Positions 28,201 to 56,935 of a DNA stretch of 64,000 nucleotides are shown piece after piece (position 1 is the stretch's first letter; each line of letters opens with the position of its first letter). The notes beneath the pieces are model-generated. The model did not search any database and was not told the DNA's origin. It was given only the letters and a program-made list of their open reading frames with translations. The stretch comes from Ilex aquifolium (lineage: Eukaryota > Streptophyta > Magnoliopsida > Aquifoliales > Aquifoliaceae), in the NCBI GenBank assembly GCA_951799425.1, contig OX637406.1, forward strand, positions 27,212,390 through 27,276,389, in the 5' to 3' direction. The position numbers were made by a program, and so were the translations under genes.

Positions 28201-31200
28201 TTATTCTCTTAGGACTCCAATTGTCAGAGTGAACAATATCAAAAGGACTAGACTGATGACTTCCAGTACTACTTAAAAAAGTGCTACGGTGATGCTTGCC
28301 TAATTGACACACTTCATATTCTAACATAAAAGGACTCAAACTAGAAGTAACTTGACGAAGCTTCTGCAATAAAGGGTGACCCAAACGAAAATTTCACTGG
28401 TGTGGAGAGACTGACATTAAATGTAGGTACTGACTCTTTGGTATCGAAATAATAACGCTCTTTGTGCTCATATCCCAAACCAATCAACTTTTTTGTCTGG
28501 AGGTCCTGAAAACTTAAAGAAGACAGAGAATATGTCACTGACTATTGTAAATATTTGGTCAATTGACTCGGATGATAAATTTAATGGAAAATGAGGGACA
28601 AATAAACTAGAGGTTAAAGACATGGACTTAGTGGGGGTGGAGATCACCAATCCCACACACTGATCGAATGGAACCATCAGCTAACACAATGCAAAAGTTA
28701 GAAGAATAGAAATTAAAAAATAAAGAGGATGTATCAGACATATAAGCACTAGTTCCTGAATTAATAATGCAAGATAATGAAGCTGAAGGAGCTGCTACAT
28801 GTGCAAAATTACTTGCATTGGCCAAGTCGGAAGCTGAAGTAGACAACTGGGGAGAAAATGAGGATAATGGTTGGATGAGCTGATTGAACTAAATATTAAG
28901 GGTGTCATGAGAGGTAGATGTAGATCCAATAGAACTACCGAGAAGAGTTTGAGACAGGTGGAGCTAGGTCATTAGGGGTCTGATTTCCAGAGGCCTTTCT
29001 CTGATACTTATTTCGACAATAGTCCTCAATTTGTCTAGTGGCCCCACAATAAGAATTTTTCCACTCAGATTGACCACCACGACCGGTGCCTCTACCACCT
29101 CGACTACCTCCTTAGGTTGGATGATGACCACCACCACTACCACCACTATGTTTACCATGTGGAATACGATGACTAGTATCACTAGAGACTAAGGTAGAAG
29201 ACTTTGTGAAGATGAAGGAGTCCCATGAGTAAGAGAAGCCCTCTAAAGGCGAGAATAGGCATTGGCAATGGTCGAAAGCATCTCACTAGCCAAAATATAA
29301 TCTTTAAACATACCATACTCAGAGTTAAGGCTTGGCAACAACAATGCAGCCATAAACTTTTCACGCTGTCGTCTCTAAATTTTTAAATCTTCACTCAGCG
29401 GCTGGTACAACATATGTTCTTCCCACAATCCTTTTGAAATGCCATAGTGATTAGTTAGGGATTTATTGCCTAGCTTGGTATAAACATAAGCTTAAAAAGT
29501 TCATAGATCCTGGACATATTATGTTTTTTTAAGTACATCTACTGAAGAGAGTCATATCTCCTTAATTGTATATCAAGAAGTTGAACATTAAAAGCGTACA
29601 GGGCTCTATACTAAGTCACAACAAAGTCATCACTGAGGAATTCTCACTTCAACAGTCTTCAGAATTTTTAGATTCCTTAAGTGGAGGATTTTTAGTCAAA
29701 TGCTTGACATTCTTTTTGTTACACAATAAAACTTTAATGGCATGGGACCAAGAATAATGATTGTTCCCATTCAATTTTACAGAAGTAATCTGTCGAATCT
29801 GATCATCCATGGAATGAAATTACCTATTCGGAACACCCACGAAAGTATCCTATATTCCGAAGTCACCATAATGAAACCCACAACCAACTAGACAGTATGG
29901 TCCCAAAAAACCATAATAATAAAAAAAAAATAACCAAAACAAAAGCCAAAAAGTGCCGGAAAATACCCAAATCGCCGTTGATATCGCAGCCGCAAACCAG
30001 CACACAAGAAATCCAATCACACTAGTAGGGTTTGAACATAACACGGGAGCTGAAAACAACTAAAAACAAACAATATCTGGACTGTTTGAAACCTGTTCAA
30101 ACCAAAAGCAGGGAAGTCGGCACTCCTTAGGCACAAAAACCATGTCCAAAATCATCAAATACAACTGAGGAGCTCAGGTAGCTCCTCCCAAGGCCTAATC
30201 GGAACCCACAAAGGTAAATGCAAGCAACAAATCAGAAGAAATAGTCAAACCACCAGATCTAGAAATCAGACCCTATTTTCTCGAAAAAAATTAGAAATTA
30301 GAAAACTCTAATTAGATGGCTTCAAAAAAATAAACAAAAATCACCATACTCCTCATGGAAAGTCAGCTCCAAAGATTAGGCTCCGGTGGCCGGAAGTCAG
30401 CAATAGAGAGGGTCCCTGAGTTCGTCTACTATGTATTCCAACATTATCTAGTCTCTCATTAATGCTTTGATACCAAGTTGAATAGTAAAAGTACTATTAG
30501 GGTTACACAGAATGAGAGGGTGAGAGAAAGAGGTAAAGAGATAGAGAGAATTATCACTTGTGTAGGTTATTTTGCTCTACATGCTCTTATTTATAATAGA
30601 CTAATATTATGTATAATTACAAAATTGCCTTACACTACTAGCAATATGAAATAAGAACTCTAAAACAAAATATGTGTTTTCTATTTCCTGGCATCTATAG
30701 ATTCACAAATAGGGAAATTTAATACTGAATAGTTCTATTAGCTTATAACTCTCAGTATTGTACAGTTATTATTTACTTGAGAGTTGACTCACTTTGACTT
30801 GCTTATGCTTGATTTGCTATCCAGCTTTTGTTTTTATATTTGCCCTCCTTTTTATTTTTGAGGCGGCTTTGGTGCACACTTGTTTTGGCTCTCCTATGAA
30901 TGTGTTGGTTGTATGTAGCAATTTAGTTTGGCAAAGTTAAATTTTATGAACTAATTTCTATTTATAGTTGTTTACAGGAAAAGCGTCAAAGGGCCAGTCT
31001 CAAAAAGTTCAACAGGCTGTTTTGGAGGTAATTCTTTCCGTCTTTACTGTTGTTATTCCCTGACATTGGTTTAATTGAACTTTCCCTACAGAAATTCCGG
31101 GCTGGTGGCTACAATGTGATTGTTGCAACATCAATTGGTGAAGAAGGTCTAGATATCATGGAAGTTGACCTTGTCATATGTTTTGATGCTAATGTGTCAC

Positions 31201-34200
31201 CTTTGAGAATGATTCAACGCATGGGGAGGACCGGAAGGAAACATGAAGGACGAGTTGATATCCTTCTGCTTTTTAGTATACTTCTGTGGGGTAGATTGTC
31301 TTATCTAATTTATTCAAGCATTTGCCAACTACTTCCTATATTTCATTTTTCACTTCAGATTTTCAAATAATTTAATTCTTGTTCTAAGCCTTGTATGCTT
31401 ATTTGAAAATTTCTTTAACAAGATTTACTAGTTTTAGCTTGTGAAGGATCAGAGTTGAAGGGTTACAGGCGAAAGCAAGCTAACAGCAAGGCTATTAAGA
31501 AACATATGCGCAATGGTGGTATAAATAGCTTCAATTTCCATAGTAGCCCAAGGATGGTAAGCTTTGTCTGATAAGTTATTATGCAGTAGTTGTAGTTTCT
31601 CAACAGCTTTGCAGCTATTGCCTTCCTAACTCTATATATTTCCGTAATTACAGATTCCCCATATTTTCAAACCAGAAGTCCAATTTGTTGAGCTCTCAAT
31701 CAAGCAATTCATTCCTCGTGGAAAAAAAGTGACTGATGAGCACCCTGTCCAGATACCTGTGTTTAAAACCAAGCTAACTGATTCCGAGACTGATTTAATA
31801 GCAAATTATTTCCACCCTACTAGAGAGAACACGTGGAAACCATCACTTATCGCCTTCCCTCACTTCCAGGCATTACCCTCCAGAGTGCACAAAGTAGTGC
31901 ATTCACTTAGAACTGGGATGCTGATCGAAACAATGCAACGCCTGCAAGGATTATCATTTCTGAGAGACAGCAAAGCTTTCTCGGTTCAGGTTCACTCCTT
32001 ATTTTTGTGCTAGACTTGCCTTTTTTCCTGAATCATTATAACTTAAGAGGTGTATTCTGATAGTTCAGGAGGAAGCTGCTTCAGAATTATGTAGAAGAGT
32101 TGAACCTGTTGAGCATCCTGACGACATTATGAAAGGTAACATCATTTTTCAACTGCTAAAAAGATTGGGGCGCAAAAATCCTAATTTGAATAAATGCTTT
32201 ATATGATTCATGCACCGTAATGAGCCGTAGAGGATTTTTTATGCTGTGGCATTAGAACGACTATTATAATGGAAAAATATTTAAATCAATCTTAATGTTT
32301 GTCTCTTTGTTCCCTTGCTTTCAAGTCCTGCATAAGCTATTCACACTTATTCAGCAGTTCATATTTTTTTCCTAAAAAAATTAAGGTAGCGATCTTCATG
32401 TTACCAATGTTTTGAGTGGTAAACAGAATTGTTATTTATTGATTTCTTTGCATATGTTGATGATTTGCATTGCTGCTCAGATATTTTCTCGGTAATTACA
32501 GTAGCCTCCCTGAGGTTTGTCTATATAAAGACTGAATCCCCTCACTTGCATTCTCTTATGCTTTGTATATTTGAAAAGATTCTCCCAATTAGTACTGGCC
32601 ACATTCGTGAGGCATTGTGAGTGATCGGCATTCTTAAATACCCAAATTTCCCTAATGGTTCCCTCATGCATTTGTAATGGGCAAGAAACTAAACAAAACT
32701 TGGGGGAGGTAATTGTAATTATGTACATGTGATTTAAAAATATAAATGAAGACAATCTAAACTTTCTTCCAAATGAACTATATCCATGTTCTAGACAACT
32801 TAACATGCCCGGAGGAACTCGAGCCTCCACCATCACTTCCATCCCATCTCTCATCATTTTGCTCTTTTTGTCTCCCTTTGCAAGGTGCACCGCCATCACC
32901 TTCCACTACCCATAACTGCCACGAACCAATCTCTTCTATTTTCCTTCTCTTTATACAACACTTGCAAAGAGTTATTGATTGATTGTTGGAAGGGAGGTGC
33001 TTTGGTGGGTCAAAGGATTGTGGTACAGGGTAGTCTCGTTGGAGCTTATTACAGTGGTGAATGTGGGTGTGGCAATGGAATTGTGATTTACGTAGAACTA
33101 TGGTGCTTGAAAACTTGGATGCAACGATGTGGTGCCAAAGTCGGTGGTCGTGGTTGTGGTGGTGGCAATGGTCCATGCTAGAGGCAGTATGATCGACTTT
33201 AGAGAGAGAGAGAGAGAGTGAGAGAAAGTCAAAAGACTGATGAGGATTGTCTTCTTGTTGAAAAGAATGCTGTTTGGTGATCGAGATTGGTATCATGTAG
33301 GTCCCCAAGGATGACCGTTGGTTGGTAACAAGGATGGACACCCCCATTTGTTTCTCTTTTTCTCTCTGCCTCTATTTCTGCCTCCCTTTTGCTCCTTCTT
33401 TGTTTCTCTCTCTCTCCCAAGTTACAAAATGATAAAGTTGGTTAAGTAGTTTAGCATATTAGTATTAAGGGTACTTTTTAGTTGTTTATTTTATTGTGTT
33501 GCTCCAGGGTCTCTATTGTGTATCTTAGGTGTTGTTATGCATTACATGTGACGTAATAAAATTTTCTTTCTCTTCTCTCTTCACTTCTCTCCTTGATCAT
33601 TATTAACATGGTATCAGACCAGGTATGATAATAGTTAGAGTTTGGATTTTATATTGAAGAAGAAAACCAGTCACCAGTTGCAGCTTGTGGATTTGTTGTT
33701 CCTTCTTGCCGAACTTCTGCCATATGTTGAAGGAGAAGCTAATTTTTTATATGCCCATTGCTACAGTGACGTGCTACGGTGCTTCTTATAGAGATGTGTT
33801 GCTGCCCACTATCACATCTTTTAATCCCTAACGCTATGTTTGGTACATGATATTAGACCTTAGCAATGAAATGATCATTCCTTAGTAATACTCATTCTTT
33901 TATTTAGTTTGTGAGAATAAAATTTTATTCCCATTCCGAAGGAATAACTAATCCCATAAATCATGAGATTAGCCATTCTCAAGTAAAACATGGTATTACC
34001 CTTTTTTTTTTTTTTTTTTTGGGAGGGGATGGGGAGGGAAAGGGGGAGGGGGACTTGAACCCTTGACCTCAAGAAGGTAAAACCTTCACAAGGTAAGGAG
34101 TACTATTAGACCAAAAGCCCATTGCCTCTCGGTAATCAGCCTAAATTCAAGTCGATGAAAAACTCGATCGTCCCTATTCTTCTCTCTCTCTCTCTCGTCA

Positions 34201-37200: not shown

Positions 37201-40200
37201 TTGTGGGGGTTTGGAATGTCTGGGTACATACGCATGACATTGCATGTGTTATGGGAGCCGGTGGAGGGCTCGGGTTGCGTTGTAGGTGTGAGTCTCACCT
37301 TATAACATGACATAGAATTGTGACATTAATTTCTTGAAATTGTATGTTTTTGGATGAATGCTTGTTTGATTGTTGAATTGAATGTGAGCATTTCATATGC
37401 ATCTAAGTTGGGGAGTAACCTCTTTAAGAGATACTCTATTTAGCGTGGTTTATCCTTTATGAGACAATATTTCGGGTGCGGAACAAGCACCGGTGGACAG
37501 CTCTCAGTTGGGCCCTTGTTGATGAAGAAAGCCGATTTGTGGCTTTAAATTACATTTTTATAAAATAATCGTATAATTGATTTTGGACTTGTAATGTTGT
37601 ATAAATGATTGTATAATGAATTCATATGAATTATGTTTTGTGTAAAATTAGATGCTATATGAGTTGGGTAAAATTTGTATGAAATTCGGTGAATTGAAAT
37701 TAAAAAATGATTGAATTGGGAGAAAACTGGGCCATGATACCGGTAGCTTGTTGATTAGCTACCGGTAGCACGATTCCAGTAGGCTCAGGTACCGGTAGTA
37801 AGTCTTGAGGTACAGGTAGCTCGCTGGCAATGGACAACCATCAGTAGCTCTTCCAAAATTTTTAAAAATTTAAAATAACTTTGATAAGCCTTCGGGCCTT
37901 GAGCATTTTTGTTCAAAAGATGTAAATAAAGTAATATTAATAGCAAATTGATGGATATTGGACCTTGGAATGGTCGTATGATGACGTGGTGTCAGGTTAT
38001 GCGGCATGCACGGGTACTTCTATGGGTTGATGGGTGATCAACGAGTCGAAAAAGGATCCCCGGATTCTGGGGCGTCACATTGCATATCGAGTCATAAATC
38101 AAGGTTTTGAAGAGCCCAGAGTCACTCATCTGAGATATAGGTATCAAACAAAACATATTACGATTGAAAGGAAAGAGTAAGAAGTTGCTCTTAGGGAGAA
38201 AACTCCTTACCAAATCATGAGTTATCTTTTACTTAACCATGAAATGGCTTTGCTAACTAATCTTATCCCATCTGAGAATGGAGAAATTAGAGATTTATAT
38301 CGACTTTTGCATTTTTCATGACATGTTGAACGGTCTTCATCCAAGTGGTTTTGAATTTGGTCTGTGGAACAATATACATGTAGTTAACAACTGGATTTGA
38401 AGTTTTCATTTTTCATGACATGCCCAGCTTCTGAACATATTTATTTAAATGGAGAATTTGTAGGAAGATGTATAGTGAACAAACTTATATTTATTTATTT
38501 TTCTTTGGTCTATGGAACAATATACATGTAGGATTATGTGCGAAATTGAAATTTATGCATTCTTGTTTTTTATTTGTTATGTCTAATATTGATTTTACTT
38601 ATTTTTTTCTGATGAATTTGTTCATTATGTGAGCATTGTGAGTGCGTTGATTGTACATTTAATCTGATTTGTCAAGTTTTGAAATTAATAGGAATACTCA
38701 TTGTAAGGGAGTATTTCAAATTTAGAAATTCTATTATAAAAAAAATTCTTTTGGTCAAATTTCATTCCATTCCAATAGAATTTATTTTATCCAAACATTG
38801 AAATGGAATGCACATTTCATTCCGAGACTTAATCCAAATTAACTGCCAAACATTGGAATGATAATACACATTCCATTCCATTCCTAAGTCCATGTCCATT
38901 CCATTCCTGTTTAAAGGCATTATTGCGTACTAAACGCAGCGTAAGAGAACCACATTCTTGATTTGGTTGAAGGATTAAAAGCTTGTCAAACTAATTAGTG
39001 CCAAGAATCAGTGATTTCACTGTGTTTGTCTTTGTCTTCTAGGCACTTGTCAACTCTTGCTTTCCAAATGCTCTTCTAATCTATTGGGCTATGTATCTTC
39101 TGGGTTCTGTTGCTTTGCTCTTGTGCTGATTCTTCCTTATTTGAATTGTTGGTTTGCACTATTGCGGTGGTTTAAGCTGATTTCTTATGGGCTGTTTGGG
39201 CTGATTTCTTGTGGGCTGTTTAGACTGTGTCTTCTCTAGTTGATAATTGGCTAGATCTGTTTTGTTACTTATACCGTACAATGAAGTTGCAATTTTCTAA
39301 TTTGCACATTGTAAGTTGTGATTTCTTTTAATTGTCTTCCCGTCTTCACGTTCTTTCTCTATTTGAGGAGTAGAACCACAACATCTCATTTTTGTTTGGG
39401 CTTTGATCTGTTGGTGCTTTTGAGATATATTTTTCTTTTCTCCTAGTTTGGGTGTGTCTTGTTTTTTGTTCAAGTGATTTGATCGTTGTTATCCGATTTT
39501 CGTTTGGTACAATTATGACGAGGGAAAACCTTGACTCTCACCAATCTATTAGTTTAAAATTAACCATGATTGTTGCTCCGTTGCAGAAATTTTTTTAACG
39601 GTCTAATCCTCCCTCAATCTCTCCTTGCTTCGGGTACTTCATGTATATCTCGAACCGTCTGAGTCTTTGACTCAAATGATACACTTCATATGACTAGTGA
39701 TTGTTCCTTCTTTGCATCTTTTTTCTCTCCTCCATCTGTAAATGTGTTTGTAGCTAATGGTACTCAAATGTCCTTGGTCGGTGTTGGGTCTATTATTTCT
39801 CCGCAACTAATACTTCCCGATGTTTATTATATTTCACAATTTACCTTACGTTTGTTTTCAGTCAATCAACTATTTGACTCAGAATATGCAGTTCTCTTTT
39901 TCTCTTCTGATTGTATTGTGCAGGATCCACGTTCTAAGAAATTGACTAGGACAGACAGTAGAAAGGGAGGCTTGTATTTGTTGGACAAGTTGCATATTTG
40001 AGATATTGTTGCTTTTTCTCTTGATTTGTCTTCTTTTCATTTGAATCCAAAGTCTTCAAGTTTTTATCTATAGCATTCTCGTTTTGGTCATGTTTCTCAT
40101 TCTCGTTTGAAGTTTTTAGCCTCTACTAGTAGTTTGTGTAATTTAGAGTCTCGTGTCTTTTTTAGTTGTAATGGATGCATGTTAACTAAATTTACTATAT

Positions 40201-43200
40201 TACCTTTTAATAAATGTTCTACTAGTTCTCTTGCACCTTTTGAGCTAGTTCATTTTGATGTATAGGGACTTGTTACTATTCCCACCAATGGAGAGTTAAG
40301 ATATTATGTTTCTTTTATTGATGATGATGATATTAGGTACTGTTGAGTTTATCTAATGAAGCGTCGTTTTGAATTCTTTTCTGTATTCATTATTTTTCAT
40401 GCTATGATACATATTCAATATTCTTCTATTATAAAATGCTTTCGATGCTACCAAGGTGAAGAAGATTCTCTCAATTATGGTTGTGATTTGTTAAAATTTG
40501 ATTACACTGTTTGTAAGTCTGGCTATACTGACATACCTGAATAGAATGGTATAACAGAGCACAAGCATTGCCATATTATGGAGACAACAAACTCTCTCTT
40601 GCTATCTATAAATGTCCTAAAATTTTTTTTGGGGAAAACAAATCTTATTGCAGTTCATCTAATTAATTGCATTTCCATTGTCATCACCTTTGTAATCTCA
40701 CCTTTTGAGAAACTGTGGTAAGCCGCCTGATTATTTTTCTTGTTTGGATGCACTTATTTTGTTTTGCTTCCTAGTGCTTTTTGTACTAAACTTTATGCTC
40801 GATCGGCTTTATGTGTTTTTTTTTTGTTATGGTGAGGATTACAAATGGTATCGTTGCTATGACTCAGTTGCACTCAAACTCTATGTCTCTTGTCATGGTT
40901 TTTTCATGGAACGTATTCGTTTATTTTCTATTCCATTTAGTTCATCATAATTGCTTAAATATGATCTCATTTACATTGACCCATTTCCGATCGATGTTCC
41001 CTTTGACACTTACGTTAGTGATATGATTGTCTCTGATGTACCTTCCTTTTCTGATTTGTTTGTCCCCCTATTGTACATACTTATGTTCGCAGGACTCTAA
41101 TTGTCATTTCTATAGATGCGGTGCCTTTCTTCTCCATTGTCACTCAGTGACAATGTGGATCATGTTCTTCGTTATACTCGTCGACCTCGTAATTGTCTAT
41201 TTCTGTTTGGTTTCTCTAACTCTTGCTATTCTACTGATTTTTGTTATTTCTTAGCTTCTATCCTCTCTTTTTGAACCCATCTCCTATAAGGAAGTTGTTT
41301 TTGACCCTCTTTGGAAACAGGGATGAGGAGCTTGTTACTTTACATAAGACTGACACTTGGGAGTTGGTTTCATTACCCTCGGGCAAGCGCACAGTTGGTT
41401 GTAAGTGGGTTTTTAAATTAAGACCAAATCTAATGGTTTTGTGGAACGATATAAGGTATGATTGGTAGCCACGAGATTTACTCAAGAGTATGACATAGAT
41501 TACGAAAAGACATTTGCTCCCGTTGCTAAGATGACCACTGTTCGCACTGTGATTGCAGTGGTTGCTATTCATCAATGGAGTCTCTCCTAGATGGATGTGC
41601 ATTCTCTATAGAGATTTGACTAAAGAAGTCTTTATGGCTCCTTTTCATGGATCATAGTCGTGATCAAGTGTCACAAGCCATTAAATGGTCTTAAACAAGC
41701 TTGGTTTGCCAAGTTTTCTTCAGTCATCTGTGACTTGGACTTTCGTGCTAGTGATCATGATTTTACCCTTTTTTTGTTGTCCACTTTCTCATGCTTTATT
41801 GTTCTTTTGCTTTGTGTTGATGATATGATTATAACAGGGGATGACGCCTGTTGGTATACGGCTATTAAAAAATCAGTTGCATATCATTTTGAGATAAAGA
41901 TTTGGGTCAACTCTGGTATTTCTTAGGGATTGAGGTTGCTTCCTCTCCCAAAGAATATTTATTCTCTCAGTATAAGTATGCATCCGATGTTATTCAGCGA
42001 GCTCATTTATCAGATAATTGGACAGCTGAGATACCATTACAGTTCAATGTTCGTTATTCTTCCTATGATGGTATTCTCCTGTCTAATCCTACCCTCCATC
42101 GTAATGTTGTTGGGAGTTTGATATATCTTACAATTACTCGCTCAGATATCTCTTATGTTGTTAGTCAATTTGTTGCCTCACTTACCACTATTCACTGGGC
42201 TGTTGTTCTCCGTACTATTCCGTATCTACGAGGCACTCTGCATAAGAGTCTCTTATTTTCTTCTTCCTCTTCTACGGAACTCGAGACTTGCTTAGATGTT
42301 GCTTGAGATTGTGACTCTATGGATCGCAAGTCTACCACTAGTTTTTGTCTTTTTCTTGGTGATTCTCTTATTTGTTGGAAAATTAAAAAATAAACGTTGT
42401 TGCTTGTTCCTCCATTGAAGTTGAGTATTGTGCTATGACATCTACCACAACTGAGATAGTTTGGTTACCATAGGTGCTTTTTGATCTTAACATCTCTTTA
42501 TCTACTTCTATCCCTATGTATTGTGACAACACGAGTGTTATTTAGGTTGCTCACAACTCAGCCTTACATGAGCATACAAAACACATTTTGATTGATTGCG
42601 AATTTGTGCACCATCATTTTCAGGTTGGCAATGTTTTTTTCCCTTTCTTCTTTCTACTATCCTGTTTGCAAATTTCTTTACGAAATCTTACACTATAGCT
42701 CGCTCTTAGCAAACTTTCGATGTTCTGTGCTATCACATCCTGAGTTTAAAGGGGAGGGGGTTGTTAGAGTAGTTTAACATATTAGTATGAAGGTTACTTT
42801 AGTTGTTTATTTTATTTTGCGTTGCCGTAGTATATTATTATGCATTACAGATTATATGTGACGTAATAAGATTCTCTTTCTCTTTTTCTTCTCTCATTGA
42901 TTATTATTGACAGACGTGGCACTGTGGGACTGGGTGTTGTAAGAGCAACAAAAGACTTATTCATAGAGAACTTGAACTCATATCTCTTAGTTGTTCACAT
43001 TGAGGGCACCATCGTCATTTGATAATTTCTATTGGAAAAATGAGATGGGCGTCATTGGTTTAAGAGCACAATGTAATTTGTCATACATATGGGGTCTAGT
43101 TGCTAAATGGACAATTCACAATTATAGTTCTTTTTGATAAATTCTATGACAAAAATTAGATGAGCATGTTAGTAGTATGCTTTAAGACCAATTATATAGA

Positions 43201-49200: not shown

Positions 49201-52200
49201 GGATCATTTTAACAATTCAATTAAATAACATGCACCAATTTAACAACACAATAAATCAATAATACTAAAACATAAAACAGCTACAACAACAACTACAAGA
49301 AAACATGAACATCAATCAATCATAATTGTTACACAAATACAATAACAATTATTTTAAATTTAAACCATATGAAACACATTAAAATCATAACTACTCAAAT
49401 AGATCACCAGTTCACCACAAATCATGTAACCTACACAAAAAACAAGTTCATGTTTTAGCAACTCAAACATCCACAACAATAACAATGTTATAATATAAAT
49501 TATACCACACAAATACTCTTATAATTACTAAAAAAAATATAAAAAAGTTAAATATATTTTTTGCGGGTAGGGTAGGGTAGGAATGCGAAAATTGATAGGT
49601 ATTCCGCATTTCTACCCGATTTAATCGGAAGATAAAAAACTCTTCCGCATTCCTACCCGATTTTTGCGGCTAGCCGTTCAGTGGGGTAGGGTAGGGTAGG
49701 AAATTGCGGCCAATCGAAAATTTGAACACCCCTAGTAATAACCACGAAAACGACAATAATTACAAATAATAATGATAATGACAATAATGATGTCGGTGAT
49801 GATAATAATAATTATAATGATAAAGGTGTTAATTTTTTTTTTTTTTTTTGCAGAATCTCAATTTGTTGATAATTTGTTAATTTTCAGGGTATCTTCGGAA
49901 GTTTCGATATCTGATGACGAGAGAGATGAGCCGGACAATAATTCTTATGAGGATAGTTTCATAGATGATACGATAGATCCTACATCAGCAAGTTCTCAAG
50001 CTAAAGCTAGTAGGAGTGACATGATGGCAGTTTACAGGTTTCTGATAAACTTCTCTGCATCATTTTGCTTTGTGGTTGTATTTTTCATTGTTCTCTTTAG
50101 TTGGTTACGCATTGTAAGAAAGATGTATTTAGTTGTGGTTTCCATCTATGTTAACCCATGATCAAGAAGATTACAACTTATATAGTAGATGTTAGAATTC
50201 TTATTTTTATGTTTTATATTTATGTAGGGTAATAGTGTAATTATCCAAGATAGTGTTCAATATAAATAAGAGTGTGTAGGGGAACACAGCCTACACACAG
50301 ATTATTCTCTTTCTCTCTTCCTCTTATCTCTCTCATTCTTCTTCTCTCTTACAAACCCTAATACCATCTTTAAAATTTCAACTTGGTATCAGAGCACTAA
50401 TATGACATTACTTACTGTTAGAAAACATCGTCGAAGAACTCGAGAATTTTCCCTGTTCGCTGACACCGCTGAGATAATGTTATGCTGACAGCATCATTGT
50501 ATGGATACCAGACCACAACCTTGAGACTCGAAATTTCATCTGAATATGGTTTGCAATTTTTGAATGTTTTTCGACAAAATAGGGTCGAATGGTTTGGTCC
50601 GCTGATTTTGGCCAGATCTGGGGGTTTCTCTGCTTCGATTTGCACCAGAAAGGTGTGACTGGAACTTGTGCTTGGTTGTTGATTGATACCCAGCTGTTTG
50701 TGGGTGGTTTCGACATGTTTTGGGGCCAACAGGAGTGTCGGCCAGCCCCTGGGATGCTCTTCACTGCTTGGGTTTCTACCAGGGCAGTGATTCTAGTTTG
50801 ATTTTGGGTTTCTTGGTGAGTTTGAGGTCTTGTGGTGTGTTTTCAGCCACTGGGTAGACTTCCAGTGTGTTGTTGTGCATAGTTGACTGGTTTTTGAAGC
50901 AGAATTGTTCCTTTAAGCCTTTTGGTGGTGTATTCTCTGTTTTTCAGCCTTTGTGTGGTTATTGCTAGTTGTGGATTGTTGTGTAGTGATTGTGTTTTCT
51001 TATTATGGCGATTTCGGATGAGATAAAGGATTTGTCAATGGATTTGGTCTGCTAGGTTTATTTCATAGATGATGAGATTCGACAAATTACTTTTGTGATG
51101 TTGAATGACACCAATTATTATTCTTGGTCCCATGCTATTAAATATTTTGGCATGCTAAATGGAAAGTCTAGTATTTGGCTGAAAGTCCTCATCCCGAGAC
51201 CTCTAAAAATTCAGAAGACTGGTGGAGTGAGAATTCCTTAGTGATGCCTCAAGTGTCTCGATTGCAGCCAAAATATGTGCATCTTGGGTGCTAAGCCTAC
51301 TTCAATGAAGTCACCTAGCTTAGGACAATTTGAGGCGCATCGTACACGCGTGGCTGTGCATTACACCCCAGACCATGCCCAAGCATGACTTTGATAACAC
51401 TAGGCAAAATATCCTGTTAAGTTATAACATTCGTGTAATCTTAACATTTAAAGGAAAACAATTAAATTATGAAAGAGAGGAGAAGAAAGTAGAGAGAAAG
51501 AGAATATGTTTATGACAATAGTGAGAGCTAGTCAAAGAATTAGGTTATCTCCCTTTGCCTCATGTAGTCATGTATTTATAATAATAAGACTTAAAGTACA
51601 TAAATACCCCTCATAGACATCATTTAACACTCCCCCTTAAGTTGGAATATAGATATCTCTCATGTCCAACTTACAAACAATAAGATGAAAAACCTTCCTA
51701 TTCTTTAGTAAAAACAATTCTTCTTTCTTTTGGTCCTTGGGCAAGCATGAAATAAAAGGTCTACAGTCTCCCAGACCTCAAATGATGTATAAAGAGTGAA
51801 AAATTAAGAAAAAAAGAAGAGGAGAAAGGCCTAGGCCCAAATGTTTTTCTCTATTTGGGCCTAGGCCCACCGCCATGAAAAACATTTCTTCTTTCTTTTG
51901 GTCCTTGGGCAAGAATCAAACCATTTTTCCCATCTATTTGCCAATGTCTGCTAATTTGCTTAATTTGACATTGCAAACTGTGAATTCTTAGAATTTTGTG
52001 AAATGCATTTGATATTTACGGGATCATATTATCACATTGCTGCAAATTTTCACTGATGGAAAAATTATTTGCATGTTATCTACAATATCCTCACTTTGAC
52101 AGGGCCCACGGCTTGTGCCTTATGCCAAGGTCCCACAGACCTCAGTGCCTTAGTGCACCTTGTGCCTCAAATAGCACTATCTGCAATTGAAGTACTTGGC

Positions 52201-53707
52201 TTTTCATTCAATTTAGCCTTTGTTTTATGAGATTCTAGGAAAGAAAAATGGAGTTTTGGGTTTAATGAGGTGATTTAGAGTTGTATGGACTAGGAGTTAG
52301 AGGCAAGAGCTTGATATAACTTTTTGACTAGAAAATAAAATATTTAGGTGATTCGGATGGGATTTTCAGTTGGAAATGAAAATGGTCAAGCAGGGAGTTA
52401 CTGTTGGTAGAAGTTCTTTTCAGTTGTTAAAAAATGATTTACTGCCATCTTGCAACTAAAGAGGCATAGAGGACATGAACTATATCCAAGTTATTTTCAA
52501 ACTATATCCAAACGAGAGCCCAGAAACCAAAATAATCAACATTACCAATTGCAAAATTGTAAAATACAAATTACGGCGTCTTTGGAATGAGAATTCTTAT
52601 TTTTCATTTTATATTTGCACTTTATACGGATAAGAGAGAACTATAGATTAGAACATTTTCAATGAGGTTGAAGGGGGAGGTATGGGAACACATTTTCTAT
52701 GGTTTTTGTCCTTGTGAGGAAACTCTATTTCTACTTAAGCATGAGTGGAGCTGTCTTCAAGTAGTAATCAGAGTAAATTGCATCATTAATAGTTGGAGAC
52801 GCCTTACTCTCAATTTGATGGATCGTGTGAATTTTGGTCCATTTAAGAACTTTAGTTACGTTCTGAAGTCCTCTTTTCTTTCATTCTGCTTCCAAACTGA
52901 TCTGAATTTATTGTATATATTTACGTTGTCATATATGGTTAAGATGCAATGCATTTCTCTTGTTTAAACTAGCTAATTGTTTACTACAGGCATTCTTTAC
53001 TTACTCAATCACCTGTAGATAGGCTGGCAAACATTTTCACAGATAGTCCTGTCATATATGGTTAAGATGCAATGCATTTCTCTTGTTTAAACTAGCTAAT
53101 TGTTTACTACAGGCATTCTTTACTTACTCAATCACCTGTAGATAGGCTGGCAAACGTTTTCACAGATAGTCCTGATTCTGTGGTTTGTAAGACACGGATA
53201 AATGGAAGTGGGAGCTCATCAGGAACCACAAATCATTCTCTCCAATCACATCAATTTGGTGTAGGGTCTTCTGATAGAAATTCATCATCCTTTGAACTGA
53301 ACCCCGAGAGGGTCACACTAGAGGCCATGCCAAACACAAGCAGCATAACTCATGGTGTCCCAAAAGAGAAAGAAAGCAAGATAGAAAGTCGAAAAAGAAA
53401 ATTGAGCTTCTATCAAACTGCGTCTATTCCTGCAGTTAACTTAGAGCAGGAATTCAGGTTTCACTCTGAAGCTGCAGGCACAGACTCATTCTTTCAGGGT
53501 CAAGTAGAGAGAACTGAAGCAAATGTGAATGTGCTTGACGATGATCAGTTTTATGGAGGTATTGATCTTGATGCAGTGGAGGAACAAGCTGCCAAACTAC
53601 TAAGAGTAAAATCAGAGTTGTCAATGAATATCAAAATTATGAATTCTGAGCCAATTCCCCAAAGTCTTGGTATTCTGGGCTCTCCTTCGTTTGATCTTGG
53701 TATCTGA
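4095..53707 (+). CDS. FANCM: FANCM-type DNA helicase/translocase, C-terminal 985 residues in 13 exons (5' exons lie before the window)
   Basis: FANCM is a nuclear SF2 DNA translocase that remodels forks and D-loops and, in plants, limits meiotic crossovers. Exons: 4095-4225, 5298-5358, 5493-5563, 30978-31027, 31092-31275, 31432-31556, 31654-31989, 32069-32135, 47145-47798, 47925-48407, 48593-48644, 49888-50037, 53113-53707. After one leading base that completes a split codon, the joined exons give 985 codons and TGA with no internal stop. Recognisable blocks are [12 protein letters not shown] (motif IV), [10 protein letters not shown] (motif V), QRMGRTGR (motif VI), the plant block [14 protein letters not shown] and an acidic C-terminus. 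The match is to plant FANCM as I know the family, not to a search. The N-terminal ATP-binding half with motifs I-III must lie upstream of base 1. Introns of 25.4 kb and 15.0 kb are packed with transposons. The gene looks intact over the visible part. Confidence 0.93.
4226..5297 (+). other. FANCM intron without recognisable elements
   Basis: A 1,072-bp AT-rich intron with poly-T runs. No terminal repeats or coding text are recognised. Confidence 0.7.
5298..5358 (+). CDS. FANCM: FANCM exon, helicase motif IV
   Basis: Acceptor TTGCAG ends at 5297 and donor GTGAAG starts at 5359. The exon reads (K)[19 protein letters not shown](R). The [12 protein letters not shown] block is the start of helicase domain 2 (motif IV region). 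Both edge codons, AAG and AGG, are split across introns and restore conserved residues. Confidence 0.93.
5493..5563 (+). CDS. FANCM: FANCM exon, helicase domain 2
   Basis: Acceptor TTCAG ends at 5492 and donor GTTTGT starts at 5564. It reads [18 protein letters not shown] then IGQSS plus the first base of a glycine codon. FIGQSSGK is a strongly conserved FANCM signature, and its glycine codon is completed 25.4 kb downstream at 30978. Confidence 0.93.
5805..6858. mobile_element. Older hAT-type non-autonomous element
   Basis: The left end TGGGGTGCAATTCAGGCGGG mirrors the right end, inverted TAGAGGTTCAACTTTGGGCG. The flanks are GTTACACA (5797-5804) and GTTACGTA (6859-6866), matching 6 of 8. CGGGTT-type motifs lie near the ends, as in the MITE at 866-1561. 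The body has no transposase. The diverged ends suggest greater age. Confidence 0.7.
6867..7333 (+). other. Unassigned intron sequence
   Basis: AT-rich sequence with CCATCC/CATTCC words. No gene, terminal repeat or RNA feature is recognised. Confidence 0.5.
7334..7929 (-). pseudogene. Plant transposon-associated reading frame (PF20167-like)
   Basis: Two adjoining minus-strand frames of about 100 residues each include [20 protein letters not shown] then RGIEIDID. This resembles the 'putative plant transposon protein' domain, whose usual text is VREFY-N and VRG. Its function is unknown even in the family. It sits beyond the purine run of the Gypsy remains and may belong to them. Confidence 0.55.
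8110..8320. repeat. Imperfect repeats of a TTCAAACGTGGG / CATTCGAACGC motif
   Basis: Three diverged units pair TTCAAACGTGGG-like text with CATTCGAACGC-like text, spaced about 75-90 bp. They lie between the two coding blocks of the Gypsy remains and have no recognised role. Confidence 0.6.
9370..9438 (+). repeat. Long near-perfect hairpin in the mini-Copia leader
   Basis: Arms 9370-9398 and 9410-9438 pair over about 29 nt with one mismatch around an 11-nt loop. The core is TGTTCACATAGCGTGAACAA with its reverse complement. It lies about 150 nt after the primer site, where packaging or dimerisation signals sit in LTR elements. That role is inference only. Confidence 0.85.
9819..10203 (+). repeat. 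Three copies of a 90-bp leader unit in the mini-Copia
   Basis: Near-identical units run 9819-9908, 9991-10081 and 10114-10203. Each starts GGGAGCTTT and contains TCGCTATTGGTCGACTGGAG. Related spacers (GCAGTAGATC, GGGCACCGTGA) are also repeated. They lie before the zinc knuckle. Confidence 0.9.
10619..10790 (+). repeat. Internally amplified 3' LTR
   Basis: The block GGAGTTATTTCCTAGTTTG to TTTTACCTAGTTT is repeated three to four times at the 5' edge of the 3' LTR. The 5' LTR has it once. The 3' LTR is therefore about 110 bp longer. Confidence 0.85.
11105..11207 (-). pseudogene. rrn5: Mitochondrial 5S rRNA (rrn5) pseudogene
   Basis: The minus strand reads AAACTGGAAACTAATATGAG at its start, against plant mitochondrial AAACCGGGCACTACGGTGAG. 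It continues with GACGTGAAAACACCCGATCC and ends TTGTTCGGGAGACATGG. It covers roughly the first 100 of about 118 nt. The altered 5' helix and missing 3' end make it a dead copy. Confidence 0.88.
11375..11549 (-). pseudogene. rrn18: Mitochondrial 18S rRNA (rrn18) 3'-terminal fragment
   Basis: The minus strand reads CTTGGGAATTGGTTTCGACC, then ACCAATGATCACCCATGACT, then GTCGCAACAAGATAGCCGTA and GGCTGGATTGAATCC. These match the helix 44/45 end of small-subunit rRNA, where the usual text is GTCGTAACAAGGTAGCCGTA. About 175 nt are present. It is non-functional here. Confidence 0.9.
11550..12056. other. Unassigned stretch between the NUMT and RTE tail
   Basis: A minus-strand open frame of 81 codons (11829-12074) begins [19 protein letters not shown]. 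It is serine-rich and not recognised. I see no transposon ends. Confidence 0.4.
12057..12640 (-). mobile_element. Two RTE-type LINE 3' ends in tandem, minus strand
   Basis: 12073-12115 and 12500-12550 carry diverged reverse complements of the plant RTE tail (usual text CCGACCCCAAATACTTGGGATAAGGCTTCATTG). Here they read CAATGAAGCCTTGCCCCAAG and CAATGAAGCATTGTCACAAG. The second is preceded by a CAACT repeat (12471-12489), the usual RTE 3' simple-repeat tail. No endonuclease or reverse transcriptase text accompanies them, so both are 5'-truncated. Confidence 0.7.
12702..13025. mobile_element. End of a CAAGGATC-family element
   Basis: CAAGGATCCAAATTTCGTTT at 12702 matches the left end of the complete copy at 24888-25782. 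TTTCG/CGAAAC-rich text follows. A possible partner end, inverted CAAGGATCAAAATTTCATTT, lies at 17343-17362. If so, the RTE and other elements between are nested within it. I could not find matching target duplications. Confidence 0.5.
13845..16965 (+). mobile_element. RTE-clade LINE, nearly full length, inactive
   Basis: The endonuclease domain is at 14004-14707 ([39 protein letters not shown]). The reverse transcriptase includes [18 protein letters not shown] at about 15925-15980 and the catalytic block [13 protein letters not shown] at 16195-16233. The tail domain includes [12 protein letters not shown] and [11 protein letters not shown]. The 3' end CCGACCCCAAATGATTGGGA followed by TTTGG repeats is the RTE signature. 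Stops and frameshifts (for example at 14511 and between 14707 and 15900) break it. It is in the same direction as FANCM. Confidence 0.92.
14004..14707 (+). pseudogene. RTE endonuclease domain (AP-endonuclease-like)
   Basis: Two overlapping open stretches, 14004-14513 and 14492-14707, carry the apurinic-type endonuclease that nicks target DNA. The first ends FWEQWMN. The second continues with [20 protein letters not shown] and [12 protein letters not shown]. The change of frame is a single indel near 14495-14515. Confidence 0.85.
17467..18125 (-). mobile_element. 5'-truncated L1 LINE, 3' portion only
   Basis: The minus strand reads [20 protein letters not shown], which is the zf-RVT region of plant L1 elements, then [15 protein letters not shown], the usual WTIW-ERN-R block. 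One frame change near 17740-17775 separates the two. There is no reverse transcriptase core. Confidence 0.82.
18126..19759. other. Repeat-derived sequence of uncertain class
   Basis: 18128-18290 resembles the GTTCAAAGTAT end at 13028. 18350-18660 holds two diverged copies of a dispersed plant repeat (AAACTAATTGTTAATGAGT, then TTATTGATGTGGGACAA). 18660-19759 shows no recognisable gene or element ends. Confidence 0.45.
19921..20625. mobile_element. Tourist-like (PIF/Harbinger) MITE inside the Copia LTR
   Basis: The ends TAGTGTATTTGGTATGATGG and, inverted, TGCTGCGTTTGGTAATAGTA share TTTGGTA. The flanks are TAA at 19918-19920 and 20626-20628, the 3-bp duplication typical of PIF/Harbinger. Removing the insert restores an LTR edge CACTAACA like that of the related LTR at 3663-3670, which supports the borders. 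It is 705 bp with no transposase. Confidence 0.88.
22700..24247 (+). mobile_element. 5'-truncated L1 LINE inserted in the Copia
   Basis: The flanks are a 17-bp duplication AATTAATTTGGTAGCAT (22683-22699) and AATTAATTAGGTAGCAT (24248-24264), one mismatch. The coding remnant includes [20 protein letters not shown] then [14 protein letters not shown] (reverse transcriptase C-terminal side), and later zf-RVT-like text ending near 24139. An early piece, [10 protein letters not shown], is joined to [10 protein letters not shown] by an internal deletion plus a frame change near 22745-22760. The 3' end is A-rich (AAAAAACAC). Confidence 0.92.
24888..25782. mobile_element. CAAGGATC-family non-autonomous element (hAT-like)
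   Basis: The ends CAAGGATCGAAATATCGTTT and, inverted, CAAGGATCAAAATGTCGTGT match at 17 of 20. The flanks are CCAGTAAT (24880-24887) and TCAGTAAT (25783-25790), an 8-bp duplication with one mismatch. Both ends are dense in TTTCG/CGAAAC words. The middle is AT-rich. No transposase. It interrupts the Copia RNase H region. Confidence 0.88.
26640..27540. other. Non-Copia stretch inside the Copia element
   Basis: Copia text stops near 26630 and resumes near 27550. Between them lie about 390 bp of unrecognised sequence, the short hAT MITE, and about 190 bp more. A plus-strand frame at 26833-27033 reads [20 protein letters not shown], not recognised. No outer terminal repeats were found. Confidence 0.45.
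27031..27340. mobile_element. Short hAT-type MITE (TAAGGGTGTTAATCGAG family)
   Basis: The ends TAAGGGTGTTAATCGAGAC and, inverted, TATGAGTGTTAATCGAGTC are well matched. The flanks TTTTCGAC (27023-27030) and TTTGTGAC (27341-27348) match 6 of 8. The body repeats GAGCTCG/CTCGAC motifs. It is 310 bp. It lies inside a roughly 0.9-kb non-Copia stretch (26640-27540) within the second Copia. Confidence 0.8.
30668..30977 (+). other. Host intron end before the FANCM exon
   Basis: T-rich sequence leading to acceptor TTTACAG. No transposon ends are recognised. It probably preserves the branch point and polypyrimidine tract of the original intron. Confidence 0.6.
30978..31027 (+). CDS. FANCM: FANCM exon, helicase domain 2
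   Basis: Acceptor TTTACAG ends at 30977 and donor GTAATT starts at 31028. It reads (G)[16 protein letters not shown], the conserved loop that follows FIGQSS in FANCM. Phase is preserved across the giant intron. Confidence 0.94.
31092..31275 (+). CDS. FANCM: FANCM exon, helicase motifs V and VI
   Basis: Acceptor CTACAG ends at 31091. The exon reads [19 protein letters not shown], then [18 protein letters not shown], then [28 protein letters not shown] is motif V and QRMGRTGR with its arginine fingers is motif VI. The 3' edge is less certain. The only GT donor that keeps frame with the next exon is GTATAC at 31276, giving DILLLFI-LACEG, a few residues longer than the family's GRV-VLACEG as I recall it. 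Confidence 0.9.
31432..31556 (+). CDS. FANCM: FANCM exon, after motif VI
   Basis: Acceptor ACTAG ends at 31431 and donor GTAAGC starts at 31557. It reads [20 protein letters not shown] then [18 protein letters not shown] and PRM, a block nearly invariant in plant FANCM. Confidence 0.93.
31654..31989 (+). CDS. FANCM: FANCM exon, conserved middle region
   Basis: Acceptor TTACAG ends at 31653 and donor GTTCAC starts at 31990. It reads [19 protein letters not shown], then PRGKKV, later [20 protein letters not shown] and [16 protein letters not shown]. The PSRVHKV-HS--TGMLI segment fits the FANCM region that contacts the MHF histone-fold pair in other organisms. That role is inferred from the family. 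Confidence 0.93.
32069..32135 (+). CDS. FANCM: FANCM exon, linker
   Basis: Acceptor TTCAG ends at 32068 and donor GTAACA starts at 32136. It reads [20 protein letters not shown] then MK. It is weakly conserved but keeps frame with both neighbours, and its last base completes an aspartate codon 15 kb downstream. Confidence 0.85.
34002..34124 (-). mobile_element. tRNA-derived SINE
   Basis: On the minus strand it starts near GGCTTTTGGTCTAATAGTAC (A-box-like), has a perfect B box GGTTCAAGTCC, and ends in a C/T-rich body and an A tail (T run at 34002-34020 on the plus strand). Internal polymerase III boxes and the A tail identify a plant SINE. It lies inside the Harbinger element near its left end. 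Target duplications are unclear. Confidence 0.8.
35647..38079 (+). mobile_element. Solo LTR, about 2.4 kb, Ty3/Gypsy type
   Basis: It starts TGTAAAACCCGAG and ends GGCGTCACA. The flanks are CTGCA (35642-35646) and TTGCA (38080-38084), matching 4 of 5. A TATA-like TATAAATAGGAG lies at about 36035. No internal coding region remains, which fits LTR-LTR recombination. The start/end style fits Gypsy (Tekay-like) LTRs. It splits the Myb/SANT-like region of the Harbinger element. Confidence 0.8.
42913..45116. other. Repeat-rich intron stretch of uncertain class
   Basis: Two diverged direct copies of about 50 bp lie at 43074-43125 and 44786-44835 (GTCATACATATGGGGTCTAG and GTCATCCATGTGGGGGTCTA). Between them are a TATA-like CTATATAAATAC at about 44423 and a CT-rich leader-like stretch. 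This could be an old LTR or another retroelement piece. No coding text is recognised. Confidence 0.45.
45117..45821. mobile_element. hAT-type element carrying a TRIM
   Basis: The ends near CAGCAGTGTAAATGAGCCAA and, inverted, AGGAGTGTAAAATCAAGCCA correspond. The flanks AGTCACTG (45109-45116) and AGTCACCA (45822-45829) match 6 of 8. The ends carry AGCTGGGC/GAGCTGAAGC words. No transposase. The TRIM at 45263-45513 inserted into it. Confidence 0.68.
45263..45513 (+). mobile_element. TRIM: miniature LTR retrotransposon, about 250 bp
   Basis: The 5' LTR about 45263-45334 and 3' LTR 45439-45513 share AATACTTAAG-TACAC, TATCTAACA and GGAGATGG/GTAGATG-TTGTT. Primer site TGGTATCAAAGC at 45335. Purine tract GTGAGGGGGCA before the 3' LTR. 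The flanks GCTTT and GTTTT match 4 of 5. It has no coding capacity. The roughly 75-bp LTRs fit the TRIM class. Confidence 0.82.
45830..47144 (+). other. Intron end with dispersed repeat copies
   Basis: 46190-46340 and 46410-46510 are two copies of a repeat containing AAGTATATAAAC-AA and CATTCGATGTG-GAT. 46135-46190 and 46700-46745 share CAATAGCGCCTCC. These resemble the copies at 18350-18660. The last 600 bp look like plain host intron. Confidence 0.5.
47145..47798 (+). CDS. FANCM: FANCM exon, low-complexity tail with conserved [11 protein letters not shown] block
   Basis: Acceptor TTTCAG ends at 47144 and donor GTCAGT starts at 47799. It reads [20 protein letters not shown] and later [20 protein letters not shown]. 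The [18 protein letters not shown] block near its end is a plant FANCM landmark. At 654 nt it is the longest exon in the window, and most of it is predicted disordered by composition. Confidence 0.9.
47925..48407 (+). CDS. FANCM: FANCM exon, disordered tail
   Basis: Acceptor TTGCAG ends at 47924 and donor GTAAAG starts at 48408. It starts [11 protein letters not shown] and includes a basic run [17 protein letters not shown]. The RLRKFGD-K motif recurs in plant FANCM tails. Edge codons GAA and GGT are split and keep the frame. Confidence 0.9.
48593..48644 (+). CDS. FANCM: FANCM short exon
   Basis: Acceptor CTCAG ends at 48592 and donor GTAAGT starts at 48645. It reads [18 protein letters not shown]. 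At 52 nt it is too short to stand as an open reading frame alone. Frame continuity on both sides supports it. Confidence 0.88.
48645..49887 (+). other. FANCM intron with hAT MITE
   Basis: A 1.24-kb intron between two short exons. Besides the MITE at 49020-49734 it holds an AT-rich run of AATAATGATAA-type words (about 49750-49825) and an 18-T run. An extra CAG at 49851-49853 could act as an acceptor, but that frame meets TGA at once. Confidence 0.75.
49020..49734. mobile_element. hAT-type MITE in a FANCM intron with perfect 8-bp duplication
   Basis: The ends TAGGGGTGTTCA and, inverted, TAGGGGTGTTCA are identical over 12 bp. The flanks GTAATAAC at 49012-49019 and 49735-49742 are identical. The subterminal regions are packed with CCTACCC/GGGTAGG words. 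The middle is AT-rich. It is 715 bp with no transposase. The clean ends suggest recent insertion, about 150 bp before the next FANCM exon. Confidence 0.95.
49888..50037 (+). CDS. FANCM: FANCM exon, acidic SFIDD segment
   Basis: Acceptor TTTTCAG ends at 49887 and donor GTTTCT starts at 50038. It reads [20 protein letters not shown], then [12 protein letters not shown] and ends [19 protein letters not shown] and MMA-YRRSLL are plant FANCM landmarks. A run of T bases lies upstream of the acceptor. Confidence 0.92.
50190..51250 (+). mobile_element. Copia 5' LTR, leader and gag start, in sense orientation
   Basis: The LTR 50190-50380 starts TGTTAGAATTCTTATTT and ends AAATTTCA. Primer site TGGTATCAGAGC at 50384. 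A leader of about 600 bp leads to Copia gag-like text at 51060-51180 ([16 protein letters not shown]). No pol region or 3' LTR is recognised. The LTR resembles those of the Copia at 24406-30667. It is a fossil fragment. Confidence 0.75.
51387..51730 (-). mobile_element. Copia LTR with interior pieces on both sides
   Basis: On the minus strand an LTR begins TGTTAAATGATG at 51629 and runs to about 51400. A purine tract TTAAGGGGGAG lies just before it (51630-51640), with Copia 3' coding-side text up to about 51730. A primer-site-like GTTATCAAAGTC follows it at about 51387-51399. An LTR with a purine tract on one side and a primer site on the other suggests unequal recombination between copies. 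Confidence 0.5.
51731..52927 (+). other. Intron sequence with a short direct repeat
   Basis: TTCTTCTTTCTTTTGGTCCT followed by TGGGCAAG occurs near 51717 and 51886. GGCCTAGGCCCA words lie between. The rest is AT-rich intron. No gene is recognised. Confidence 0.5.
52928..53173 (+). repeat. 123-bp tandem duplication over the last intron-exon junction of FANCM
   Basis: Copy 1 is 52928-53050 and copy 2 is 53051-53173. I see one difference, A versus G in the LAN(I/V)F codon. Each copy carries the intron end, polypyrimidine tract, CAG acceptor and first 61 nt of the exon. Near identity implies a recent event. Confidence 0.95.
53113..53707 (+). CDS. FANCM: FANCM last coding exon, acidic C-terminus
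   Basis: It uses the second copy of a duplicated acceptor (ACTACAG ending at 53112). It reads (R)[19 protein letters not shown] and ends with [28 protein letters not shown] and a TGA stop at 53705-53707. The DLDAVE-QA--LL block is typical of the plant FANCM end. The first acceptor copy, used at 52990, would run into TAA shortly after the duplication point, so the second copy is the coding one. Confidence 0.92.
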
Positions 53708-56304: not shown

Positions 56305-56935
56305 TGTAGGCGCCTCCTTACCTGGGCGCCGGCCTACTGGGCGTTACTGTCCTACTCGGCGCCTCCCTATCGGCCTACTCGGCACCTCCCTACTGGTCTA
56401 CTGGGTGTTTCCCTACTGGTCTACTGGGCGCCTCCCTACTAGCCAACTAGATGCTACTAGCTTACTAGGTGCCTCCCTACCTGGCTTACTGAGCGCTACT
56501 GGCCTACTCGGCGCTACTGTCCTACTCGGCGCCTCTCTACCTGGCGCCTCCCTACTGGCCTACTGGGCGTCTCCCTACCTGGCGCCTCCCTACTGGCCTA
56601 TTGGACGCCTCCCTACCTGGCGCCTCCCTACCGGCCTACTCTATTTACTCCCTACTTGGCGTTGGGCTACTGGGCGCCTCCCTACCTGACGCCTCGCTAC
56701 TGGCCTACTGGGCGCCTCCCTCCTCGGCGCCTCGCTACTGGGGCGTCTCCCTACTTGGCGCTTCCCTACTGGGCGCCTCCCTACTAGGCATCTCCTTGTT
56801 GAACGCCTCCCTCCTTGGCGCCGGCCTACTGGGCGCCTCCCTACTTGGCGCCGACCTATTTGGTGCCTTCCTGCTTAGCGCCTTCCTACTGGGCACCTTC
56901 CTACTTGGTGCCTCCCTTCTGGGAGCCTCCTTGGT
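56305..56935. repeat. 15-bp minisatellite, about 40 copies, coding on the minus strand
   Basis: The unit GGCGCCTCCCTACTG and variants (CTACCTG, CTACTTG) repeat in steps of 15 or multiples of it. Because 15 is a multiple of three, frames stay open on both strands. The minus strand spells repeats of A-P-S-R-E/K. The plus strand spells GASL-type repeats. Confidence 0.9.

Follow-up and report, generated by a model that had tools for sequence, protein, structure and literature searches.

A young tandem duplication gives FANCM of Ilex aquifolium two identical last-exon acceptors and may divide its transcripts

The window analysed here, a stretch of 64,000 nucleotides from the Ilex aquifolium genome, carries a gene whose sequence identifies it as FANCM. 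The gene matches the Hef profile with an E value of 8.3e-107, and the best solved-structure match of one of its exons is the Fanconi anemia group M protein. Of 17 probe matches, 13 had E ≤2.11e-4, and the helicase exons appear open. A search of the 800-Mb genome placed the last exon at one site only, which is best explained if FANCM is a single-copy gene here. The penultimate exon ends in the donor CAG/GTTTCT at 50038 (the slash marks the exon border), and the final intron that follows it contains an LTR-like stretch at about 50190-50400.

31086..31241, plus strand: helicase C-terminal-domain exon, which identifies the gene as FANCM (borders approximate)
49888..50037, plus strand: penultimate FANCM coding exon, ..SDMMAVY plus the AG of a split Arg codon (from frame and GT/AG borders, without a transcript)
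50038..52989 with acceptor 1, or 50038-53112 with acceptor 2, plus strand: final intron (from sequence, GT/AG)
52928..53050, plus strand: copy 1 of the 123-bp duplication, intron end 52928-52989 (62 nt) and exon start 52990-53050 (61 nt), from TRF and direct comparison
53051..53173, plus strand: copy 2, intron end 53051-53112 (62 nt) and exon start 53113-53173 (61 nt), one mismatch to copy 1
52973..52989, plus strand: acceptor module 1, with AG at 52988-52989 and a CTAAT motif whose A, at 52976, precedes the last AG base by 13 nt
53096..53112, plus strand: acceptor module 2, identical to the first, with AG at 53111-53112 and the A of its CTAAT motif at 53099
52990..53065, plus strand: coding part via acceptor 1, 25 residues including the split Arg, then TAA 53063-53065
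53113..53707, plus strand: coding part of the last exon via acceptor 2, 198 residues including the split Arg, then TGA 53705-53707

Each unit of the duplication thus joins 62 nt from the end of the last intron to 61 nt from the start of the last exon, and the two copies lie head to tail. Direct comparison shows 122 of 123 positions to be identical, and TRF called the array at 52927-53174 with a period of 123, 2.0 copies and 99% matches. The sole mismatch, A53033 in copy 1 and G53156 in copy 2, falls on exon nucleotide 44 and exchanges Ile (A) for Val (G). A side-by-side match of this extent is not due to chance. The break ends that were joined have only 2 bp (TG) in common, and the array is best explained as the short and recent kind of duplication that end joining leaves. 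For comparison, one 10-kb stretch was sampled from each of the 20 contigs C1-C20, always at 5.00-5.01 Mb; in these 200,000 bases TRF found nine two-copy arrays (1.7-2.3 copies, period 40-500), one of which, with a 46-bp unit, reached ≥98% matches. The window together with 40 kb upstream gave seven TRF rows, the FANCM pair being the only one at ≥98%. Near-identical two-copy pairs therefore seem uncommon in this genome.

The acceptors at 52990 and 53113, 123 nt apart, share the sequence tagctaattgtttactacag/GCATTCTTTA, and around their AG the two copies match at every position between -62 and +43. In both copies the CTAAT motif falls within the duplicated 62 nt, and no other AG separates it from the acceptor, suggesting that each acceptor has its own branch-type site; the gap of 13 nt is close. 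Other candidate branch sites, CTGAT at 52900 and TTTAC at 52923, lie upstream of copy 1. Over 100 nt on either side, GC content rises from 28.0 to 36.0% across acceptor 1 and from 35.0 to 42.0% across acceptor 2, so that the contrast is nearly equal.

The two acceptors differ in their reading frames. Use of acceptor 1 leads to the TAA at 53063, whereas acceptor 2 alone keeps the frame to the natural TGA at 53705. These results bear out what the preliminary description had proposed for the gene (FANCM), the tandem duplication at 52928..53173 with one difference, the identical acceptors and the frames. It had further expected a shorter protein lacking an acidic tail. The early stop after 25 residues stands, but the messenger is more likely to be lost than to give a stable short protein, because the 3' UTR of this form, at least 642 nt when only the stretch between the early stop and the end of the natural stop codon is counted, exceeds the 300-350 nt above which plant 3' UTRs are described to trigger decay (PMC4417159). 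The 198-residue tail is only mildly acidic as a whole (26 D+E against 19 K+R), and acidity over 25-residue windows peaks towards its end, at about residues 135-161. A strong donor-like TGG/GTAAGT occurs at 53791, 83 nt past the natural stop (98.9th percentile of the GTs in the window, scored with a donor matrix, as for all donor percentiles given here). If a 3' UTR intron were spliced there, the natural message would also have an intron more than 50-55 nt past its stop, which would weaken the decay contrast between the two forms.

With evenly balanced confidence, we propose that the two identical acceptors partition the FANCM pre-mRNA between productive and unproductive splicing. The spliceosome would most likely use 52990 and 53113 both at appreciable levels; splicing to 53113 would yield normal FANCM, and splicing to 52990 would lead to the stop at 53063 and probable nonsense-mediated decay via the long 3' UTR. 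The net result would be an allele with reduced FANCM output, plausibly a natural hypomorph that is mechanistically ordinary. FANCM limits crossovers, and part of its messages may be wasted; a large phenotype is most likely absent unless output drops far.

A less probable reading is that almost every transcript uses acceptor 2, which would make the duplication a silent polymorphism. The complete exon follows acceptor 2, where GC content over 75-200 nt is 41.3-42.5% compared with 35.3-37.3% after acceptor 1, and the acceptor-2 frame is still open to its natural end, a weak argument as the duplication is young. Against this stand the identity of the copies around both acceptors and the position of acceptor 1, which lies closer to the donor and whose upstream flank is the richer in AT.

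The opposite reading, that splicing goes almost entirely to acceptor 1, which is nearer the donor and adjoins the original intron, leaving a near-null allele with little full-length FANCM, is unlikely. Plants can survive without FANCM, null knockouts having been made in wheat (PMC9233680), and acceptor 1 retains the original AT-rich flank and has the candidate branch sites at 52900 and 52923 just upstream of its copy only. If the true branch point lay upstream of 52928, copy 2 would lack it and acceptor 1 would be favoured. However, copy 2 carries the same acceptor module, and designed human tandem 3' splice sites are reported to show no preference for the first or the second site (PMC6783452), at spacings (2-59 nt) shorter than the 123 nt of FANCM. 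Moreover, counted from these upstream candidates, AGs at 52942 and 52971 precede acceptor 1.

It is highly improbable that both acceptors act in one transcript, with the segment from a copy-1 donor to acceptor 2 removed as a new intron, an outcome that the preliminary description did not name. With 70 nt taken as the minimum intron size, just one of the six GT sites in 52990-53110 leaves an intron long enough:

53015..53112, plus strand: candidate new intron to acceptor 2, 98 nt, CCT/GTAGAT; weak donor, frame shift

This donor scores at the 67.1st percentile. The GT at 53061 scores better (87.7th percentile), but leaves 52 nt and also shifts the frame. All six donors are weak, too close or frame-breaking. 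Least credible is an assembly or haplotype artefact at a truly single-copy locus: such pairs are uncommon, but the copies differ at one base, the contig spans 31.6 Mb in a 103-contig assembly, and assembly overlaps are far longer than a 123-bp unit.

The same layout did yield a new intron in the potato RdRp gene PGSC0003DMG402000361, where a tandem duplication across intron 1/exon 2 likewise doubled branch site, pyrimidine tract and acceptor, and an intron, described with RNA support of 106 junction reads, arose from a cryptic GTAAG donor in the exon upstream (PMC4974935). FANCM lacks a good in-frame donor, and its copies differ by one base rather than ten. Splicing is also altered by a short tandem duplication in the case of Hellsten et al. 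2011 (via PMC4974935); in FANCM, by contrast, a real acceptor of an existing intron was copied and the AGGT exonic unit is unneeded. As in the described yeast Mph1 truncation, the acceptor-1 form would lose the extreme C-terminal end of a helicase of the FANCM family; in Mph1 this removes an RPA-binding module, and restraint of break-induced replication depends on the last 39 residues (PMC13237216). The plant tail resembles that C-terminus in place and local acidity only, and a scan of its 198 residues did not find the strict phi-D/E-x-phi-phi motif. The fancm alleles reported in Brassica and wheat share the expected direction of effect, reduced FANCM function (PMC5876677, PMC9233680). The Brassica nonsense allele ends the protein between its helicase domains, a long way before the last exon (PMC5876677), and whereas those alleles were induced, the duplication would be a natural splice-split allele.

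The border between the last intron and last exon of FANCM is crossed by a tandem duplication of 123 bp. This duplication had been reported in the preliminary description, and it is borne out in the assembly as given: TRF, run on the window, returned two copies of period 123 at 52927-53174, and a base-by-base comparison of the copies revealed a sole difference, A53033 against G53156. The elements concerned are the following.

49888-50037, forward strand: penultimate coding exon of FANCM
52928-53050, forward strand: copy 1 of the duplication
53051-53173, forward strand: copy 2 of the duplication
52990, forward strand: exon start of acceptor 1, read to the stop TAA at 53063
53113, forward strand: exon start of acceptor 2, read to the stop TGA at 53705

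Each unit comprises the end of the intron and the start of the exon (62 and 61 nt, respectively). The match between the copies extends by only one base beyond each side (T52927 = T53050 and G53174 = G53051), and the joined ends have 2 bp, TG, in common, which would fit an origin by end joining better than one by recombination between repeats. The 501 bases around the duplication have one matching place in the 800,232,872-base genome. The last FANCM exon is present at one locus, and its protein matches the genome twice, at its own exon and at copy 1 itself. At an assumed substitution rate of 6.5e-9 per site and year, the single difference corresponds to an age of 0.63 My (Poisson range 0.016-3.5 My), and at a slower assumed rate of 2e-9 to 2.0 My, with gene conversion ignored in the dating.

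A FANCM probe located the helicase exons in order on the + strand from -26116 to 31740 (negative positions lie upstream of the window), with E values of at most 2.11e-4 in 13 of the 17 reported matches. Two weaker matches, with E values of 1.2 and 0.32, could correspond to exons near -34754 and -34460; the remaining two, downstream and on the other strand (E 8.3 and 6.3), look spurious. Stops are found within only two of the 13 good matches, each of which spans a short intron. All 15 exon stretches begin close to an AG and end close to a GT, a weak test because both motifs are common. The joined helicase exons match the Hef profile over residues 5-468 of 468 with an E value of 8.3e-107 and 358 bits, below the 610 bits set as the curated cut-off for a whole Hef nuclease; the next family follows at E 9.5e-15. 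Between 32 and 49.9 kb, the exons are represented by open frames only. One helicase exon was compared with solved structures, and the Fanconi anemia group M protein came top (E 3.3e-21) among the 60 matches listed out of 103. By these profile and structure matches, the joined exons are the Hef-type SF2 helicase core of a FANCM orthologue, among the Hef/FANCM/Mph1 helicases. The gene measures about 80 kb from the first secure exon (-26116) to the stop at 53707, and may be longer; this size is due to its very long introns.

Repeats and mobile-element pieces are scattered through these introns. The final intron contains, at 50190-51250, an LTR-like stretch starting with TGTTAG, followed by CTTGGTATCAGAGC, which we take to be a primer-binding-type motif, and then, by eye, by a Copia gag-like open piece; judged by this sequence, the stretch is a truncated retrotransposon relic. 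Inspection by eye also revealed look-alike fragments of a LINE endonuclease and reverse transcriptase in an intron at 13989-16902, and Copia-type polymerase-like fragments at 39607-42470, within the large intron region of about 32-47 kb. Further intronic repeats are a short telomere-like run of AACCCT 6-bp units at 904-1000, with 5.2 copies at 970-1000, and GGGTA runs at 49568-49700. At 56345-56930, TRF shows a minisatellite composed of CTACTGGCCTACTCGGCGCCTCC-type units, in which several periods are nested.

The donor at 50038 (CAG/GTTTCT) leaves the AG of a split Arg codon, for which either acceptor supplies the G, and the 14 residues directly after this Arg are the same from either one. The frame opened by acceptor 1 runs across the copy border and reaches the stop TAA at 53063 after 25 residues; that of acceptor 2 comprises 198 residues and ends at the TGA at 53705. 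Both products have 21 residues in common, with one I/V difference, and the predicted acceptor-1 product has VIYG added and 177 residues missing. Local site strength does not distinguish the two acceptors, because the copies have no mismatch between -62 and +43 relative to the AG. In both copies a CTAAT is located 13 nt before the acceptor end with no intervening AG, and we infer that it may be the branch point in use. Further branch candidates, including 52900 and 52923, are found upstream of copy 1 only, and AGs at 52942 and 52971 precede its acceptor. The GC contrast over 100 nt is approximately equal (28.0 to 36.0% at acceptor 1 and 35.0 to 42.0% at acceptor 2); other positions profiled alongside were left out of account, since some of them do not coincide exactly with exon starts.

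Where a designed human library offered two consensus donors, the first prevailed, but its tandem acceptors, at spacings of 2-59 nt, revealed no order preference of this kind (PMC6783452). From this lack of order preference, mixed use of acceptors 1 and 2 would be expected. In the acceptor-1 form, 642 nt lie between its stop and the end of the natural stop, with the natural 3' UTR in addition. Plant messenger decay is provoked by 3' UTRs longer than 300-350 nt, and also by introns more than 50-55 nt after the stop (PMC4417159). Under this rule, the use of acceptor 1 would probably result in reduced messenger rather than in much short protein. The preliminary description had envisaged two competing acceptors, the first giving a shorter protein. 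This interpretation is supported in part: the two acceptors stand, and the 642 nt and the plant decay rule lead us to recast their contrast as a putative split between productive and unproductive splicing. A strong donor-like TGG/GTAAGT at 53791 (98.9th percentile among the GTs of the window) and an acceptor-like TTTCCAG near 54100 could delimit a 3' UTR intron 83 nt past the natural stop. The normal message might then be exposed to decay too, which counts against a clean contrast between the two forms.

The tail, that is, the last-exon part of the protein read from acceptor 2, has no assignable domain, given that a Pfam search of the last exon returned no family at E values up to 1. AlphaFold, run on the last exon as a single sequence of 197 residues, gave a model (mean pLDDT 50.5, pTM 0.19) that is too poor for a fold search and displays little order outside a helix at residues 152-176, with block means of 85 and 86 for residues 151-170. 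An acidic patch of 25 residues is positioned before and into this helix. Among solved structures, the last 61 residues matched two designed proteins and one Helicobacter protein chimera, with E values of 0.047-8.2. In yeast Mph1, the last 39 residues, reportedly needed for the interaction with RPA, are required to restrain break-induced replication (PMC13237216). The FANCM tail differs from Mph1 in that the strict RPA-binding core phi-D/E-x-phi-phi has no match within its 198 residues; the idea that the lost tail is an Mph1-like RPA-binding module is thus not borne out by the motif, and a comparable role is a lead only. The loose form phi-D/E-x-phi occurs at three places in the tail, one of them, LDAV at residue 153, lying within the acidic patch.

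In plants, FANCM keeps class II crossovers in check, and alleles induced in it are of interest to breeders. That the young natural duplication renders FANCM self-limiting, with a fixed share of transcripts directed to the unproductive acceptor and decayed, less anti-crossover helicase and more recombination in the lineage, is in our judgement quite improbable. If true, it would constitute a natural modifier that acts on crossover number through splicing; HEI10 is said to be a natural modifier in Arabidopsis. A natural allele with splicing partitioned by a 123-bp duplication would also be a simple marker with which to test for recombination effects, and a snapshot of the state just before mutation settles acceptor choice or intron gain. 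In the open-access literature searched, no paper treats plant FANCM in connection with both a tandem duplication and an intron acceptor.

In a sample of 20 stretches, taken at the same offset on each of 20 contigs and totalling 200,000 bases, TRF detected one two-copy array with a period of 40-500 and at least 98% matches, too few for a firm rate. A few such arrays per Mb would amount to thousands genome-wide, some of them expected on acceptors, so that an event of this known kind is ordinary and its interest comes from its location in FANCM; for now, it represents a testable small structural variant. A second two-copy tandem duplication in the window, at 9964-10214 (period 122; TRF), has 95% matches and is thus probably older than the 123-bp duplication.

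Six GT sites between 52990 and 53110 would give introns to acceptor 2 of 98, 67, 62, 52, 28 and 11 nt. The frame is lost with each of the four longest, and the GTs for the 28- and 11-nt introns are located past the early stop. The top-scoring GT of the six, at 53061 (87.7th percentile), corresponds to the 52-nt intron, a length that is probably too short for plant splicing. In the potato RdRp gene, a duplication of the same type, across intron 1 and exon 2, can give a new intron (PMC4974935). The FANCM unit likewise includes the intron end and the exon start, and a candidate branch-type site and AG are present in both copies. By contrast with the potato intron, which is supported by RNA, the donors in FANCM are weak, too close or frame-breaking, and the new-intron route looks unproductive in this gene.
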